Shown here piece by piece: positions 9,878-52,867 of a DNA stretch of 64,000 bases. Every line of letters starts with the position of its first letter. Position 1 is the stretch's first letter. The notes under the pieces are model-generated. The model made no database searches and was not told the origin of the DNA. It was given only the letters and a program-made list of their open reading frames with translations. The DNA lies in NCBI RefSeq assembly GCF_000425705.1, contig NZ_AUDY01000009.1, positions 124,001-188,000 of the forward strand. Reading direction: 5' to 3'. The position numbers and the translations under genes were made by a program. This DNA is from Halobacillus kuroshimensis DSM 18393 (GTDB lineage: Bacteria; Bacillota; Bacilli; Bacillales; Halobacillaceae).

Positions 9878-11299
9878 ATGTTAAAACGAGCCATTCATGT
9901 ATCCAATACACTCATGCAGCGGTACCTTCCCGACCCCTTTCTTTTCGTCATTCTATTAACGATGGTGGTCTTCGGGTTTGGATTGATCTTTACACCAAGC
10001 ACTCCTGTCCAGATGGTGCAGTACTGGGGAGAAGGATTTTGGAACCTTTTATCGTTCTCCATGCAGATGGTGCTCGTACTTGTCACCGGCTTTGTTCTGG
10101 CGAGCAGTCCGGTGTTTAAAAAGGCGCTCGGGCGACTGGCATCCACAGCCCGAACACCGGGACAGGCTGTTGTCATTGTGACGGTTGTTTCACTGGCAGC
10201 CAGCTGGATAAACTGGGGCTTCGGACTTGTCATAGGAGCCTTATTTGCAAGAGAGCTTGCCAAAAGGGTGGAACGGGTGGATTACCGGCTTTTAATTGCA
10301 AGCGCTTACTCTGGATTTCTTGTCTGGCACGGAGGACTGGCCGGTTCTATACCACTGACGATCGCCACACCTGATCATTTCACAGCAGATTCCATCGGCA
10401 TCATTCCCGCTTCGGAAACGATATTTGCCGGATTCAACCTTGCGATTACTGCAGCTTTATTCATTGCTGTACCACTTTTGAACAGGAGAATGACACCAGC
10501 AGAGGAAGAAAGGTTTGTCATCGACCGCTCCCTGCTTGAGCAGCCTCGTCATCAGGAGGCAGCCGGTCTGGAGGCTGAAGTCATGACACCGGCCGTCCGC
10601 ATGGAAAACAGCCGGGTTCTATCCATGATCATCGGAGGACTGGGCGTTGGATTTCTTGTGTACTATTTTGTTACGACCGGTTTTCAATTGAATCTGAACA
10701 TCGTCAATTTTGCTTTCCTATTTATGGGGATTCTTTTCCACGGCACGCCAAGACACTTTTTAGACGCTGTGAGCGATGCGGTGAAAGGGGCGGGAGGCAT
10801 TATCATCCAATTTCCCTTTTATGCAGGAATTATGGGGATGATGGTCGCCTCCGGTCTGGCTGCGCTTATGTCGGAAGCGTTTGTGTCCATCTCCACCCCC
10901 TTTACGTTTCCCTTCTTCGCCTTTTTAAGCGCAGGGATCGTCAACTTTTTCGTCCCGTCCGGTGGAGGGCAGTGGGCTGTACAGGCACCGATTATGCTGG
11001 ATGCGGCCCAACACCTCGGAGTATCAATACCAAAAACAGCGATGGCAGTCGCCTGGGGAGACGCATGGACCAATATGATTCAACCCTTCTGGGCCCTGCC
11101 GGCACTGGCGATTGCCGGCACTGGCGATTGCCGGCTTGAAGGCGAAGGACATTATGGGCTTCTGTCTTATCATTCTTTTTGTAAGCGGTATCATAATTTC
11201 GCTCGGGTTACTGTTCCTTTAGTGAAGCTTTCACGTATGTTGTGGACGGTCACGTTCCGTTTATCGGTGAATGCTTGCCGCGGGCACGGCCTCAGCTAA
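9878..11299 (+). CDS. atoE: AtoE-like short-chain fatty acid transporter, C-terminus frameshifted
   Basis: A multipass carrier of the AtoE family. The start is ATG 9878, after AAAGGAGG. It runs normally through SWINWGFGLVIGALFAREL, FVPSGGGQWAVQAP and WTNMIQPFWALPALAIAG. There a 16-bp unit is present twice in tandem (11098-11129), shifting the frame. The actual frame continues for about 55 unrelated residues and stops at 11299, inside repeat A2. Removing one 16-bp copy restores a 442-residue protein ending GIIISLGLLFL at the TAG 11220-11222, the usual family length. The last transmembrane helix is lost. The gene may be inactive, or switchable by slippage. It probably carried acetoacetate or short-chain fatty acids. 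No acyl-CoA genes adjoin it. Confidence 0.85.
   Translation: MLKRAIHVSNTLMQRYLPDPFLFVILLTMVVFGFGLIFTPSTPVQMVQYWGEGFWNLLSFSMQMVLVLVTGFVLASSPVFKKALGRLASTARTPGQAVVIVTVVSLAASWINWGFGLVIGALFARELAKRVERVDYRLLIASAYSGFLVWHGGLAGSIPLTIATPDHFTADSIGIIPASETIFAGFNLAITAALFIAVPLLNRRMTPAEEERFVIDRSLLEQPRHQEAAGLEAEVMTPAVRMENSRVLSMIIGGLGVGFLVYYFVTTGFQLNLNIVNFAFLFMGILFHGTPRHFLDAVSDAVKGAGGIIIQFPFYAGIMGMMVASGLAALMSEAFVSISTPFTFPFFAFLSAGIVNFFVPSGGGQWAVQAPIMLDAAQHLGVSIPKTAMAVAWGDAWTNMIQPFWALPALAIAGTGDCRLEGEGHYGLLSYHSFCKRYHNFARVTVPLVKLSRMLWTVTFRLSVNACRGHGLS
11098..11129 (+). repeat. 16-bp tandem duplication inside atoE
   Basis: GCCGGCACTGGCGATT occurs twice back to back, followed by a further GCCGGC. Because 16 is not a multiple of three, the duplication shifts the atoE frame by +1. 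Deleting either copy restores a family-like C-terminus. Confidence 0.95.
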
Positions 11300-11383
11300 C
11301 TTGGTCAGGAAGAACACCTGCCCAAGTGGATCTTCGGCTCGCGCTGTTCCCGCAGGCGTCATCACCGAACACTTCACGTGACC
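11248..11383 (+). repeat. family A repeat, copy A2
   Basis: A 136-bp element bounded by GGTCACG and CGTGACC. The arms share inner boxes CGGTG, GCCGCGGG/CCCGCAGGC and CTTGG.CAGG/CCTG.CCAAG, so the whole element can fold into one long imperfect hairpin. The frameshifted atoE frame ends inside it. A terminator-like hairpin follows 20 bp downstream. Confidence 0.92.
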
Positions 11384-11438: not shown

Positions 11439-11593
11439 ATGCTTTAAAAATTCTAAAAAACGTCTGTAGATTGATACTGGCGACATCTGCTTTTTAGAAT
11501 AGCTCTGTTAAAGTCTGTTGTTGATATTTTAAACGATTACTAAATCGTCTCCGTCTGGAATTAGGGGTCCGGTTCGTTGTTTACTCAGAGCAT

Positions 11594-11715
11594 GGGATGG
11601 CAGGGAAAACCGTCCGCTTTCCGCGGGGAACGATGAGCCTCCTCGAACTTCGTTCTCCGGGGTCTCACCTTGTTCCTTTTTCCCGCAGGAGTCTACCTGT
11701 TTTCCCTGCCATCCC
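11594..11715 (-). repeat. family B hairpin repeat, copy B1
   Basis: A 122-bp element with a perfect 17-bp terminal inverted repeat (GGGATGGCAGGGAAAAC). On the minus strand the core reads ACTCCTGCGGGA, GTGAGACCCCGG, CGAGGAGGCTCA and CCCGCGGAAAGCGG, the conserved boxes of the family. Confidence 0.9.
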
Positions 11716-11771
11716 TTTCGTAGTAGTGGAACGGACTTCGGTTATATCATTTCTAACTACCCTTCTTTGAA

Positions 11772-11893
11772 GAGGCGGCCTTGGGAATGGCGAGACTCCT
11801 GTGGGATGAAGGTACATCGTGAGACCCCGGAAGGCGCAGCCTGAGGAGGCTCACGGTACCCCACGGAAAGGGAGTCATTCCCAAGGCCGCCTC
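11772..11893 (+). repeat. family B hairpin repeat, copy B2
   Basis: A 122-bp element with a perfect 18-bp terminal inverted repeat (GAGGCGGCCTTGGGAATG), unrelated in sequence to the arms of B1. The core boxes GACTCCTGTGGG, GTGAGACCCCGGAAGGCGC, TGAGGAGGCTCACG and CCCACGGAAAGGGAGTC are conserved. Confidence 0.9.
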
Positions 11894-12025
11894 ATACAAA
11901 TCCCATGACAGAAAGGGGTGATCTGAGCTCACATGTTAAATAACAACACCAAGCAATAACAGAGCCTTCAGAATAAGAATAACCCAACCTTGATACGAAA
12001 CGGTTGGACGAGAGCCCATTTTGGT

Positions 12026-12147
12026 CCAGGAAGGAGCGCAGACCTTTCCACTCCTGCGGAAAAACGGACGGCCGAGACCCCGCAGGGTGGTTTCCCCGAG
12101 GAGGCTTGGACGTTCGTCCGCGGAAAGGGAATGATCGGAGCTTCTGG
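12026..12147 (+). repeat. family B hairpin repeat, copy B3 (mismatched arms)
   Basis: The core boxes ACTCCTGCGGAAAAACGG, CCGAGACCCCGCAGGG, CCCCGAGGAGGCTTGGACG and GTCCGCGGAAAGGG are intact. The left arm (GGAGCGCAGACC) matches the left arm of B6, while the right arm (GATCGGAGCTTCTGG) matches the right arm of B4. The outer stem therefore pairs poorly. Confidence 0.85.
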
Positions 12148-20067: not shown

Positions 20068-20140
20068 CAAAGATGAGAAACCTACGAATCATTACAATCC
20101 TGGAATGTCAGGAATGAATGGGAGCCAGCATGTGGTCTCT

Positions 20141-20276
20141 GGTCACGTTCCGCTTATCGGTGGATGCTTGCCGCGGGCACGGCCTCAGCTAACTTGGGCA
20201 GGAAAACCACCTGTCCAAGTGGATCTTCGGCTCGTGCTGTTCCCGCAGGCGTCACCACCGAACGCTCCTCGTGACC
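20141..20276 (+). repeat. family A repeat, copy A3
   Basis: An intact 136-bp copy bounded by GGTCACG and CGTGACC. The inner stem is CTTGGGCAGG / CCTGTCCAAG, where one G-U wobble replaces a G-C pair. It is followed by a GGAAGAT-type terminator hairpin, as for A2. Confidence 0.92.
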
Positions 20277-20297
20277 TTCCCTGATGATGCTCTATAA

Positions 20298-22472: not shown

Positions 22473-22727
22473 ATGGGAAAAGCCAGTCAGCCGATTGAGT
22501 CTTTTTATCATAAAGTGTACGAAAACCTGGATGCGTTCCATGAAGAAGCGCAGGAGCTTCAACGAGAAGAGTCCGGTGGAGATCCAGTGGATGACGAAAA
22601 GCTGGAGCGGACAGAATTTGCGCTGCAGCTGGCCAAGGATGTCCTCGAAAACTTCGTCGACGATGGCAAGAGCATGACCATCAACTACGATAAACGTTCG
22701 GTCACCATTGAAGTACCAAAACGCTGA
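22473..22727 (+). CDS. conserved-looking small hypothetical protein
   Basis: An 84-residue acidic soluble protein starting MGKASQPIESFYHKVYENL, rich in Glu and predicted largely helical, with a short C-terminal beta-like tail (MTINYDKRSVTIEVPKR). No motif is recognised. The ATG 22473 follows AAAGGAG at some distance, with a GGCGGG closer in. It begins 68 bp after the symporter gene and is closed by a strong terminator. It could be co-transcribed with the symporter or have its own promoter (TGATATAATG just upstream). Length, start site and terminator make it likely to be a real gene. Confidence 0.65.
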   Translation: MGKASQPIESFYHKVYENLDAFHEEAQELQREESGGDPVDDEKLERTEFALQLAKDVLENFVDDGKSMTINYDKRSVTIEVPKR

Positions 22728-22773
22728 AAAAGAGCTTGTCGAGAAACTCCGTGTTCCTCGACAAGCTCTTTTT
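22727..22773 (+). terminator. terminator after the small hypothetical gene
   Basis: A 17-base arm, AAAAAGAGCTTGTCGAG, pairs with CTCGACAAGCTCTTTTT across a 13-base loop. It begins at the stop codon. Confidence 0.88.
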
Positions 22774-22944
22774 ATGTGTTCAGGGTTCCCTGCCATTTCC
22801 TTCACCCACAAATGTCTATTTTTCTTTGGAACTTGCAAAAAAAGAAGTGACAGGTTGTTACTTTTCAGGGCCGGAATGCTTCTGCTTTAGTGGCTCTTCC
22901 TTAACTCAGCTACCTTTAAGTCTTTTAAAATCACCTTTTGGTGA

Positions 22945-23081: not shown

Positions 23082-23203
23082 CAAGAAAGATGTTCCGACC
23101 ATTCCACTCCTGCGGAAAAACGGGCGGCCGAGACCCCGCAGGGCGTTCTCCCCGAGGAGGCTTGGACGTTCGTCCGCGGAAAGGGGATGGTCGGAGCTTC
23201 TGG
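23082..23203 (+). repeat. family B hairpin repeat, copy B4
   Basis: It begins within a base or two of the end of A4. The core boxes CACTCCTGCGGAAAAACGGG, CCGAGACCCCGCAGGGCG, CCCCGAGGAGGCTTGGACG and GTCCGCGGAAAGGGG are present. The arms CCGACCATTCC / GGGATGGTCGG pair. Confidence 0.88.
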
Positions 23204-32301: not shown

Positions 32302-32372
32302 TTAAGGCCCTTCCTTATTAGGAAGGGCCTTAAGCTTGTAGAGAAACCCCTGTTTCTTTACAAGCTTTTTTC
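32302..32372 (+). terminator. double terminator after the gal operon
   Basis: Two consecutive hairpins are present. TTAAGGCCCTTCC / GGAAGGGCCTTAA spans 32302-32333. AAGCTTGTA.AGAAA / TTTCT.TACAAGCTT spans 32332-32367 and is followed by TTTTTT. Confidence 0.88.
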
Positions 32373-32382
32373 TTTCTTACCG

Positions 32383-32503
32383 CCAGGAGCGAAAGCCCCT
32401 TCCCGTTCCGCGGACGAGCGCCCGAGCTTCCTCGCAAAACCAACGCTCGGCGATCTGGGCTCACTCGTTCTTCCGCAGGAGTGGAAGGGGCACCGCTCCT
32501 TGG
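32383..32503 (-). repeat. family B hairpin repeat, copy B5
   Basis: A diverged 121-bp copy in reverse orientation. The arms GCCCCTTCC / GGAAGGGGC and AGGAGCG / CGCTCCT pair. The end boxes CACTCCTGCGGAA and GTCCGCGGAA are kept, while the middle boxes have drifted. Confidence 0.75.
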
Positions 32504-32519
32504 GTGTTCTTTAAAATCG

Positions 32520-32573
32520 AAAAAGACTCTCCTTCACCCAGCTCACCTTTGCTGGATGGAGGAGAGTCTTTTT
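32520..32573. repeat. hairpin flank attached to repeat B5
   Basis: AAAAAGACTCTCC pairs with GGAGAGTCTTTTT, with a nested CAGC/GCTG. Read on the minus strand it contains GTGAAGGAGAGTC just before B5, the same motif that precedes B6 at 52723. The remaining 240 bp up to the Lnt-like gene show nothing recognisable. Confidence 0.6.
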
Positions 32574-32816
32574 CATATTTCGGCAGCCAGCCGTCATCAG
32601 CGTCTGTTATGCCGGCCTCCTCTGCATCGCTTAAAGGTCTTCTCCTCCAACGAACCATCTGCTTTCTCTCCGCTGTTTTTTCCTTTTGAAGAGAACGGCA
32701 GTGATAAGGAAAGATGTCCTTTTCACCATCCATTTCGTCCTTTCCACGGAAAATCGGGGGCGGTTTATTCTCCGGCGGTTTACGATAGAGGCAGCAAAAG
32801 AAAGGGAGTGCGAGAA

Positions 32817-34271
32817 ATGAAATGGATGCGGGTGATCCTCATGATGGCCGCTGGGATGACTTTTATGGCTTGGAGCAACGGAAAATATTTAATCAGTGTG
32901 GCGGCTTGGATTTTTCCGGTTCTTTTTATGATGGCTGTGAAGGAAATGTCCTTCAGAAAAGCATGGGTGCTACTTCCTCTGGCCACAGGGACGGCTAATC
33001 AGATCAGTTTTCATCATCTGCTGCCGAGTCTTGACCTTCCTTTTTTTGAGTACCTTCCTGGATTAGCTGGAGCTCTTTATGCCATCCCCTATCTTCTACA
33101 GAAGCATGCGTACCAAAGGAGTGATTCCTTTATCGTTACGCTGCTTTTTCCATCGGCTTATACGCTGCTGGATACGCTTCATATGTCCCTCAATCCATAC
33201 GGCAGCTTCGGTCATCTCGGTTATTCGCAGCATCAGCTTCTTCCGGTCATGCAGATGGCATCCATCCTCGGCATTACAGGTCTCACGTTTCTCCTTACTT
33301 GGACGGCCGCTGTCGTCTTCTGGCTGATGCATGGAGAGGCGACGTTGAAGAAACGCCGGACGGCTCTTGTGATGGCCGGAGTGCTCGCAGCCGCTCTGAC
33401 CCTTGGCGGACTGCGGACGATCTCAGGAGGAGAAAAAGAAACCGTCCACGTTGCCGGTCTGCACATCTTTGACCGGACCAACGAGGAGACGACGGAAATT
33501 TTTCAGCTTCAGGAAAGCGATCCTTCCTTATTTTTGGAAAAAGCCGGAGAGCGGATGGATGAATTGATCAAAGCTACTGAAAAAGAAGCAGAGCACGGAG
33601 CAGAAATCATCCATCACGCCGAAGGCTCGGTCATTATTGATGAATCCCAGAAGACGGAGTATCTTGACAGACTGCGGGAGGTCGCCGTAAAGGCCGGCGT
33701 CTACATCATCACCGTCCCGTACATCTATACTCCCTCAGAGGAACCCAACGAAAATGTTCTGTACATCATTGACCAGAACGGAGAGATTGCCGCGGAGCAT
33801 TATAAGTACGGCGGGAGCTTTGTCGAACAGACGGTGGAGGGAGACGGGGATATCCCTTATGTGGACACTCCTTACGGTCGGATTGCCGGAGTCATCTGCT
33901 GGGATAAGGATTTCCCAGCTGTCATGAATCAAGTCGGGGAAAAGGACATCGATCTTCTCTTTGTTCCATCCGCTGACTGGAAGGAGATTTCACCGTACCA
34001 TACCATTGCCGGTACGTTCCGCGGGTTGGAAAACGGAGCGGCTGTCATCACCCAGACGGTGAACGGGATGTCGATGATCACGGATGCCGATGGACGTACG
34101 CTTGCGGAAATGGATCATTTTACGACAGACGACTGGACGATGCACGGTCATGTACCGGTGGAGGGGAAGGGGACCTTTTATACGGCGGCGGGGCAATATT
34201 TTCCTGTATGTATTATAATAGCTGTGATTCTACTTCTGTACGTCGTGTTTATTAGAAAACAAAGAAAGTGA
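32817..34271 (+). CDS. Lnt-like membrane protein with nitrilase domain
   Basis: A 484-residue protein with about seven membrane helices in the first 205 residues. An extracytoplasmic carbon-nitrogen hydrolase domain follows (about 210-455), then a C-terminal helix and basic tail. The layout is that of apolipoprotein N-acyltransferase. A Glu in IIHHAEGSVI, a Lys in AEHYKYGGSF and a Cys in AGVICWDKDF are placed like the Glu-Lys-Cys triad. Lnt adds a third acyl chain to lipoproteins in Gram-negatives; Firmicutes rarely have it, so this may act on another amide. The start ATG 32817 follows AAAGGGAG; a longer frame to 32481 crosses intergenic hairpins. It precedes LytTR and DUF3021 genes by 9 bp. 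Confidence 0.8.
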   Translation: MKWMRVILMMAAGMTFMAWSNGKYLISVAAWIFPVLFMMAVKEMSFRKAWVLLPLATGTANQISFHHLLPSLDLPFFEYLPGLAGALYAIPYLLQKHAYQRSDSFIVTLLFPSAYTLLDTLHMSLNPYGSFGHLGYSQHQLLPVMQMASILGITGLTFLLTWTAAVVFWLMHGEATLKKRRTALVMAGVLAAALTLGGLRTISGGEKETVHVAGLHIFDRTNEETTEIFQLQESDPSLFLEKAGERMDELIKATEKEAEHGAEIIHHAEGSVIIDESQKTEYLDRLREVAVKAGVYIITVPYIYTPSEEPNENVLYIIDQNGEIAAEHYKYGGSFVEQTVEGDGDIPYVDTPYGRIAGVICWDKDFPAVMNQVGEKDIDLLFVPSADWKEISPYHTIAGTFRGLENGAAVITQTVNGMSMITDADGRTLAEMDHFTTDDWTMHGHVPVEGKGTFYTAAGQYFPVCIIIAVILLLYVVFIRKQRK

Positions 34272-34280
34272 GGGGCTGCT

Positions 34281-34820
34281 GTGAAACTCGGATTGATCTG
34301 TGGGAATGACCACAGAGAGCGGATTTTGGGAAAATTCGAAGCTCTCGGTATCGAAATCTACCGACAGGCCGATGTCTATGTTGTCCAGGAAGGCCTGCAG
34401 GACGGATTTCTGCCGTGCATCGTTTTCCATCCGGATCATCTGGAGGACTTGACGCTGCTTCTGCAGACCGTCTCCTCCAAAGCATCCTCCACGAAAATCG
34501 TTGGTATGAAACAGGAGGAATTCCACGTCCTGCCGCATGCCGACATCTTATATTTCGAAGCTCAGGACGCCGTTGTTTTCTGTCATACGAAAAACGACGT
34601 CTACCGGATGAAGGAGAAGCTGTTCCGGCTTGAGGAACGACTGCCGGGAGAACAATTCATCAAAGTGAGCCGCTCGTTTATCGTGCATATCAACACAGTG
34701 GAAAAAATTATTCCGTGGTTCAACCGTCGTCTGCTCTTGACGTTTGAAGGATCGAAAAAGGAAGTGGAAGTGTCCAAAAACTACGTGAAATCTTTCAAAG
34801 CGTTTCTAGGAATGAGGTGA
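34281..34820 (+). CDS. LytTR-domain transcriptional regulator
   Basis: A 179-residue protein. The C-terminal half (about 80-179) is a LytTR DNA-binding domain with HADILYFEAQDAVVFCHTKN, EQFIKVSRSFIVHINTVEKI and FEGSKKEVEVSKNYVKSFK. The N-terminal 75 residues have an alpha/beta pattern but no phospho-receiver aspartate set that I can identify, so this is not a classical response regulator. A GTG start at 34281 is used, 9 bp after the Lnt-like gene and 6 bp before the DUF3021 gene. LytTR genes paired with a small membrane protein commonly form a regulator/inhibitor system. That is the likely arrangement here. Confidence 0.9.
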   Translation: MKLGLICGNDHRERILGKFEALGIEIYRQADVYVVQEGLQDGFLPCIVFHPDHLEDLTLLLQTVSSKASSTKIVGMKQEEFHVLPHADILYFEAQDAVVFCHTKNDVYRMKEKLFRLEERLPGEQFIKVSRSFIVHINTVEKIIPWFNRRLLLTFEGSKKEVEVSKNYVKSFKAFLGMR

Positions 34821-34826
34821 TCAGCG

Positions 34827-35234
34827 ATGAAAAAATATTATACGGAAGCGATTCTGCTGTCGGTCCTCATCGGCGTGTTGATCCGGGGAGTGGTTCTCCT
34901 GTGGTCCGGTCGTCCACTGCTCTCCGGCCCGGTCGATTATGTTTTCAGCGTGTTGATCGCGGTGCTGTCCTGTTCGGCCGCCTTCATCATCCACATGCAC
35001 ATCCTTGCCGGCAGGAAGTCTTCCTTTTTGAAAAAAGCCGGCTGGTCCTGCCTGCTGATCGCTCTTCTTTACGGGTCGGGCAACCTTTTGTTCAGCGGGT
35101 ATTCGATTCTCTTCGAAGCGGCTTTCTATGGATATGGGGCCGGCATTCTTGCCCTATCGCTCCTCTTGATCTATCAATTGAACAAACGAATCCAAACCTA
35201 TGAGTACTACTTGATGAAAAAGAAAAATCGTTAG
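34827..35234 (+). CDS. DUF3021-family membrane protein
   Basis: A 135-residue protein with four transmembrane helices and a basic cytoplasmic tail (NKRIQTYEYYLMKKKNR). Length, helix pattern and its place directly behind a LytTR gene fit the DUF3021 family. Such proteins are thought to hold the partner LytTR regulator at the membrane, as in streptococcal HdrRM-type pairs. The ATG 34827 follows GAGGTGAT and lies 6 bp after the LytTR stop. A terminator ends the three-gene unit. The inhibitory role is inferred from related systems. Confidence 0.82.
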   Translation: MKKYYTEAILLSVLIGVLIRGVVLLWSGRPLLSGPVDYVFSVLIAVLSCSAAFIIHMHILAGRKSSFLKKAGWSCLLIALLYGSGNLLFSGYSILFEAAFYGYGAGILALSLLLIYQLNKRIQTYEYYLMKKKNR

Positions 35235-35235
35235 G

Positions 35236-35264
35236 AAAACCCCTGTCACCACGGGGGTTTTTGT
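35236..35264 (+). terminator. terminator after the DUF3021 gene
   Basis: AAAACCCC / GGGGTTTTT across a ten-base loop. Confidence 0.82.
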
Positions 35265-52379: not shown

Positions 52380-52417
52380 TTTGCCCTCTCGTAGAGCTCC
52401 CCCATTTGTTTGGGCAT

Positions 52418-52553
52418 GGTCACGTTCCGCTTATCGGTGGATGCTTGCCGCGGGCACAGCCTCAGCTAACTTGGACAGGAAGACCACCTGTCCAAGTGGA
52501 TCTTCGGCTCGTGCTGTTCCCGCAGGCGTCACCACCGAACGCTCTACGAGACC
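52418..52553 (+). repeat. family A repeat, copy A6
   Basis: A 136-bp copy with a perfect inner stem CTTGGACAGG / CCTGTCCAAG; the right outer arm has changed to TACGAGACC. It lies in the 709-bp gap 52340-53048, which also holds the mutase terminator, B6 and the promoter of the IDEAL-domain gene. Confidence 0.92.
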
Positions 52554-52746
52554 TTACTCAGTAATGATCGAAAAATCGTTCCCTTTATACTGCAAAATCA
52601 TTTGGGGAAGAATTTTATCTTCATCATATCTCTTGGTTCATAGGATACTTTCCGAAATGGTTACATCATTGTTCGTGCAAATCCAGACCTCCTTGCCGGG
52701 AGCCACCCACGAAGGTGGATGAGTGAAGGAGAGTCCTTTTCAATTC

Positions 52747-52867
52747 CGAAAGGAGCGCAGACCATTCAACTCCTGCGGAAAAACGGGCGGCCGAGGCCCC
52801 ACAGGGCGGTCTCCCCGAGGAGACTTGGACGTTCGTCCGCGGAAAGGGAATGGTCTGCGCTCCTGGA
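52747..52867 (+). repeat. family B hairpin repeat, copy B6
   Basis: A perfect 17-bp outer stem, AGGAGCGCAGACCATTC / GAATGGTCTGCGCTCCT, surrounds the core boxes AACTCCTGCGGAAAAACGGG, CCGAGGCCCCACAGGGCG, CCCCGAGGAGACTTGGACG and GTCCGCGGAAAGGG. The motif GTGAAGGAGAGTCC lies 12 bp before it, as for B5. Confidence 0.9.

Follow-up and report, generated by a model that had tools for sequence, protein, structure and literature searches.

The six family B repeats in the window, by which we mean the whole 64,000-nucleotide stretch of Halobacillus kuroshimensis DSM 18393 considered here, are probably copies of a roughly 125-bp accessory hairpin cassette located just inside the ends of transposable elements of the Bacillales. 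This cassette lies 5' and/or 3' of IS1182-family transposases, and MITEs that have other terminal inverted repeats (TIRs) also contain it, either alone or as two inverted copies. The window is part of a genome of 3.85 Mb in 15 contigs, referred to below as the strain's own genome, and its relevant features are collected in Table 1.

Table 1. Family B cores and the mobile elements that carry them, in window coordinates.
Feature	Position	Strand	Basis
465-bp MITE, two outward inverted cores (B1 minus, B2 plus)	11502..11966	.	TIRs, empty site, target duplication
Left target-site duplication TTTAGAATA	11493..11501	.	9-bp duplication
Right target-site duplication TTCAGAATA	11967..11975	.	9-bp duplication
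B1 core hairpin, 17-bp arms	11594..11715	-	boxes, arms, fold
B2 core hairpin, 18-bp arms	11772..11893	+	boxes, arms, fold
B3, relic IS1182-type 3'-end cassette, imperfect arms	12032..12145	+	alignment; ortholog in G011
B4, relic cassette, subfamily of B3	23087..23201	+	absent at syntenic G011 place
B5 in IS1182-type 3' end (end hairpin, cassette, downstream hairpin), beside terminator-like hairpin	32319..32561	-	L256 identity
B6, relic cassette	52750..52864	+	boxes; G011 site comparison

The first-pass annotation had described B1 to B6 as a family with a conserved set of boxes and with outer arms that differ from copy to copy and nevertheless pair. This observation holds in part: the boxes are real, whereas the arms are specific to subfamilies rather than to individual copies. 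All six copies lie where they had been placed, as was verified from the box positions in the window, and one of the boxes, GAGACCCCG, is found four times there against 0.64 expected. The boxes are generally shared by B1–B6, except that B5 lacks GAGACCCCG and has the variant CCGCGGAACGG as its last box. The perfect stems reported for B1 and B2 were recovered, that of B1 (17 bp) in both arms and fold and that of B2 over 18 bp, and in B6 the fold yields a long, continuous arm stem. However, the outer arms do not differ completely, as had been stated: those of B3 and B6 are homologous and have their right arm in common with B4, the left arm of which is unlike theirs in its outer part, and those of B5 are more distantly similar to the arms of B3, B6 and B4. 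Pairing is imperfect in B3, where 14 of the 18 compared positions pair. B3–B6 constitute two related subfamilies, and both arm types recur in the strain's own genome, from which 24 copies were read, 20 of them in addition to B3–B6. B1 and B2, in turn, had been treated as separate repeats; both are inverted cores within one dispersed repeat of 465 bp, the arms of which are nearly identical among its other full-length copies. A simple dispersed palindrome with random arms is ruled out, since the subfamilies pass on their arms. A second repeat, ACGCCTGCGGG ... CCCGCGGCAAGC, is present at window positions 11253-11370, 20140-20277, 52416-52554 and further places, with more than 20 additional copies in the strain's own genome; its box plan and spacing are roughly those of family B, and it appears to be a divergent version of the family B fold.

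The 465-bp repeat carrying B1 and B2 is a mobile MITE, as is evident from its terminal inverted repeats (11502-11529 and 11938-11965), its target duplications, its dispersed copies and an empty site in the nearest relative, G011, which is 84% identical over the compared stretch. The reciprocal case, a copy of the same element found in G011 and absent from the window, was also encountered. Its target sites are plain 9-bp, AT-rich sequences, duplicated exactly in seven of the eight copies tested, the window copy having one mismatch. Elsewhere in the strain's own genome, the element is present in full length at C1:263327, C8:86435 and C8:44985, a shortened copy at C2:99447 has lost one core, and those at C5:224025, C12:68817 and C6:17791 have both cores without their inner halves. 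The loci L016, L017 and L018 are derivatives of this kind, devoid of the inner core halves and retaining the ends and exact 9-bp duplications. Searching the strain's own genome with the end pattern of the MITE revealed no autonomous partner: eight of the nine matches are MITE copies, and no transposase was recognised by eye at the ninth. A TIR-like match at G000:C1:184721 was rejected as a partner, no transposase ORF being recognised there by eye, and so was ISL3, which is missing from the strain's own genome and present in three of the 22 genomes of the genus.

B3–B6 have a different background, as all four are similar in sequence to one end of an element that encodes an IS1182-type transposase. 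Over 244 bp, B5 shares 88% identity with the 3' end of such an element in G026 (L256), the transposase frame of which is intact, while B3, B4 and B6 match this stretch at 71-78% and L255 at 77-88%. The strain's own genome yielded no intact IS1182-type transposase and only short fragments of one (nine matches, best E 3.2e-9), so B3–B6 are considered relics; at four places in this genome, fragments of the transposase C-terminus adjoin class I cores. In an uncontrolled count, an end motif is present in 16 of the 24 relic copies of the strain's own genome, 11 of which have a stem of 5-12 bp just outside it. At the B6 site, G011 keeps a right-arm-like piece and the core is gone, which is read as a probable deletion derivative. 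The window also contains a short, coreless IS1182-type end hairpin at 22726-22776, recognised by its resemblance to L256 and L255 at their 3' ends. A 2.9-kb stretch bounded by B5 (32329-35248), which is missing at the syntenic place in G011, carries a LytTR-like regulator and a hydrolase-like gene, both putative and read from their translations. Finally, around 313.6-314.1 kb of G011:C11 (in L101), class I cores are arranged head-to-tail with common arms, in three units as counted by eye.

The association with IS1182 transposases extends beyond these relics. For instance, a transposase annotated as IS1182 family on a Peribacillus plasmid has a core immediately upstream of it, and this transposase, when used as a query at E <= 0.001, has matches, many of which are weak, in 22 of the 44 family genomes and in 165 of the 299 genomes examined from the order. 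Among 60 transposase loci fetched, 59 of which are distinct (L266 and L284 are the same place), 24 harbor a total of 27 cores at a distance of at most 400 bp from the transposase: 15 at its 3' side on the same strand, 11 at its 5' side on the opposite strand and one at its 5' side on the same strand, with 26 of the 27 facing outward. The other 35 distinct loci have no core within 400 bp, some of them being interrupted by contig ends. Element ends were mapped for 24 elements, chosen by the author from L254 and the 60 loci for an apparently near-complete transposase. In 22 of them, the element is bounded by a direct repeat of 19-41 bp, and the repeat itself forms a hairpin, the stem of which measures 6-18 bp; the whole of a terminator-like target is thus duplicated. 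Within these 22 elements, the core is placed only 5' in seven, only 3' in three and on both sides in one, and 11 have none according to the pattern, which overlooks at least one variant core seen by eye (L305). The core is thus ruled out as an essential IS1182 end, and the cassette looks accessory. When L285 is set against its coreless relative L286, it seems that the cassette of one lineage may have arrived as a MITE nested in the element's own end hairpin. IS1272, a member of the IS1182 family, is reported to target hairpins without sequence consensus and to delete part of its target without duplication (PMC4923244). The family, IS1272 included, and the near-complete elements mapped here are alike in their transposase, their hairpin ends and their insertion into terminator-like hairpins, whereas the duplication of the whole hairpin (22 of 24) sets the latter apart from IS1272.

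The core itself is widespread. Of the 44 family genomes, 42 contain its spaced pattern, ACTCCTGYGG-N45..75-CCGCGGAAAG, with 25 copies in the strain's own genome and a maximum of 99 in a single genome, and none contains the reversed pattern; within the class, the spaced pattern is present in 19 of 200 sampled genomes. Named records with the core, among the matches listed, belong to Peribacillus, Rossellomorea, Cytobacillus, Halobacillus, Sporosarcina and Planococcus. A single 181-base query retrieved the core from 14 plasmid records and gave no core match in the phage collection. With a permissive E-value, the only Rfam 15 family overlapping B2 is tsr24, which scores 14.7 bits (E 0.98) where the threshold is 50. 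A purine riboswitch was observed close to a core copy of Priestia koreensis (L128, 821-922).

The fold was evaluated on an alignment of 91 core sequences, less than 80% identical including their flanks, in which 27 named pairs were counted. Paired cells amount to 89.4% versus 72.9% in shuffles, percentages that are somewhat favoured by the exclusion by eye of nine of the 100 non-redundant references (L125, L126, L130, L145, L175, L185, L198, L213 and L242). Double-changed cells number 412 versus 130 +/- 9 in shuffled alignments, and the covariation score is 0.391 versus 0.129 +/- 0.006 in shuffles and at most 0.084 in slid controls; picking the 27 pairs on the same alignment favours this score, but by less than the gap to the slid controls. 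The evidence comes from the inner helices only, because the sequences were selected by their outer boxes, which are set by the search pattern and prove nothing in themselves. The covariation check proposed along with the first-pass annotation gave a strong signal in the inner helices, and the suggestion made there that the stem is selected while its sequence is free is supported family-wide, both by these compensatory changes and by the arms, which pair better with each other than with swapped ones. The mismatches are also unevenly distributed. The inner helices P3 and P4 contain 55 G.T against 26 A.C, where composition predicts near equality (p=0.0017, the cells not being independent), and a stricter set of P1 and P3 gives 32 G.T against 22, which is not significant (p=0.22). 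In the arms (P1), G.A outnumbers C.T by 152 to 7 in 86 non-redundant copies and by 70 to 14 in a stricter set of 77, the arms being purine-rich. Both asymmetries, G.A over C.T and G.T over A.C, single out the ACTCC strand as the folding one. It is nevertheless important to stress that DNA, too, tolerates G.T and G.A better than other mismatches, so this asymmetry cannot decide between RNA and single-stranded DNA.

Since the aligner misplaced the outer arms, these were scored by comparing own with swapped arms instead of by alignment columns. The median duplex energy is -23.4 for own and -11.9 for swapped arms; in 98 of 151 copies the own arms beat all 20 swaps, and among 86 non-redundant copies they rank above the 95th percentile of swaps in 52 and below it in 34. 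Whether both arms change together in orthologs, a further check that had been proposed, was followed in four relic pairs shared by the strain's own genome and G011, a small set identified by flanks (poorly conserved in the immediate vicinity of L042/L315) with arm stretches picked by eye. Of 15 changed arm positions, one is compensatory on both sides and the other 14 are changed on one side, with nine changes that break the pair in one genome and five that swap Watson-Crick for G.T or the reverse; two further changes stand outside this count, one at the outermost position of L343, on one side only, and one in the loop of L059/L317. Such drift of relics would fit selection on active elements followed by decay of dead ones. 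The earlier interpretation was correct only in part, and it missed the transposable-element origin: because the repeats are parts of such elements, IS1182 ends or a MITE, the arms within a genome come from the parent element instead of arising afresh in each copy.

Regarding the other elements that enclose the core, at least one of the listed end motifs was found in the 330-bp flanks of 46 of 108 cores among the matches listed, versus 80 of 540 control places drawn from these stretches, and 62 of these 108 cores have none. Again counted over these 108 cores among the matches listed and 540 controls, clear enrichment is seen for the ACAGAGCC motif (11 versus 8), the main IS1182 motif (16 versus 18) and the CGAAACTGAGTCTT motif (4 versus 3), weak enrichment for AAAACAGCC (17 versus 38) and little or none for the second IS1182 motif (6 versus 19). 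The control weakens the case for AAAACAGCC, and two other end types are therefore claimed. Ten stretches of G002 illustrate one of them, with the CGAAACTGAGTCTT repeat on both sides in nine and a -+ core pair in seven within the tolerance used. Altogether, 13 close core pairs were found in at least 118 contig stretches, nine of them -+, three ++, one -- and none +-; the sets of 108, 118 and 123 core stretches used in this work, all taken among the matches listed, come partly from common genomes. With respect to replication, all 15 single cores of G123 (L344-L358, comprising all its pattern copies) lie on the GC-skew leading strand and 14 of the 15 on the majority coding strand, and the leading-strand count in G203 is four of five (5 of its 17 copies). 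A universal replication-strand bias is ruled out, the counts being 9 versus 12 in G002 (21 of its 99 copies), 4 versus 14 in stretches with an IS1182 motif and 69 versus 50 in a mixed set.

We propose that in an active element the shape of one strand would be selected, namely the ACTCC strand running 5'-3' toward the element end, with the bases of the arms free as long as pairing holds. The parts recognised would be the internal loops ACTC/AAAG and ACCCC/GAGGAGG together with the G.A-rich junctions, and the arms would pass from a parent element to its copies and then drift in dead elements, as is apparently the case in the window. The balance tips slightly towards RNA as the folded molecule, which would be carried on transcripts leaving the element, either in the 3' UTR of the transposase mRNA or on outward transcripts from the other end. 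As for a specific role, a putative boundary element, a structure that confers stability or a site for protein binding on these outgoing transcripts may be named, although any such assignment is rather unlikely to be the right one. The main competitor, in our view somewhat unlikely, is that the cassette acts as DNA, the ACTCC strand folding as a single strand or cruciform whose shape is read by the transposase or a host protein. It owes this rank to the fact that the IS1182 family reads hairpin targets and that the folded strand ends 3' at each element end: this strand, in one orientation relative to both ends, would hence be the transferred strand, and 22 of 24 IS1182-type elements lie between hairpin direct repeats of 19-41 bp. 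The hairpin targeting reported for IS1272 (PMC4923244) indicates that hairpin recognition is real in this family, and the leading-strand position of all 15 cores in G123 also agrees with a DNA function. What speaks against such a function is that 11 of 22 elements are coreless by pattern, that cores also reside within a MITE with plain 9-bp AT-rich targets, and that the strand bias is not general, as the counts for G002 and the IS1182-motif stretches reveal.

Two further explanations were considered. The first-pass annotation had considered that one arm might be rewritten from the other, and quasipalindrome correction by template switching could indeed produce long, near-perfect arms of free sequence without any selection; the single compensatory double change in an orthologous pair is what it would leave behind. 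However, the internal loops and G.A junctions persist, conserved and uncorrected, the one-sided changes at 14 of 15 positions in the four relic pairs speak against arm copying, and deletion derivatives exist, all of which makes this mechanism very improbable. Still less credence is due to a host regulatory RNA or terminator retained for the adjoining genes. The cores are intergenic, with 112 of 123 among the matches listed clear of ORFs of at least 110 aa, and the gene upstream is codirectional in 62 of the 91 classable cases among the matches listed, as would be expected of such an RNA. On the other hand, close relatives differ by gains and losses of copies, the arms of the copies read are not followed by a U-run, and no Rfam family reaches its gathering threshold at the cores of the window and of 10 further loci.

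When compared with known systems, the transposon cassette resembles MITEs and foldback elements in their terminal inverted repeats, target duplications and high copy number, and departs from them by its covarying, strand-specific fold, which occurs next to IS1182 transposases as well. In attC sites, REPINs and the end hairpins of IS200-type elements, shape outweighs sequence and one strand is read, and the cassette is analogous to them in this respect. Among the repeats described for Bacillus, one paper lists Bhal-1, a conserved intergenic stem-loop family of B. halodurans with 36 copies of 74 bp, and bcr1 of the B. cereus group, a mobile, structured intergenic repeat (PMC2267715). By these descriptions, bcr1 is similar in kind, and the size of Bhal-1 fits that of the core, so that Bhal-1 could be the same core (PMC2267715). 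In the literature searched, no description was recognisable as naming this module. Structured mobile repeats are already known, and the new part is the outward, common and accessory placement in several transposon families.

It is possible, though doubtful, that we are dealing with a strand-specific module common to unrelated transposon families, that is, IS1182 elements together with MITEs of two or more further end types, which faces outward and has its shape read by a common host factor; if true, this would be a portable RNA or single-stranded DNA device of mobile elements across the Bacillales. A very abundant repeat of Bacillus-like genomes, which 42 of the 44 family genomes contain in up to 99 copies, is here explained as transposon cargo, and a well-defined fold is now at hand for experiments. 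A function, if found, would show different transposons using one folded module, and how a hairpin-inserting family may read the shape of DNA or RNA.
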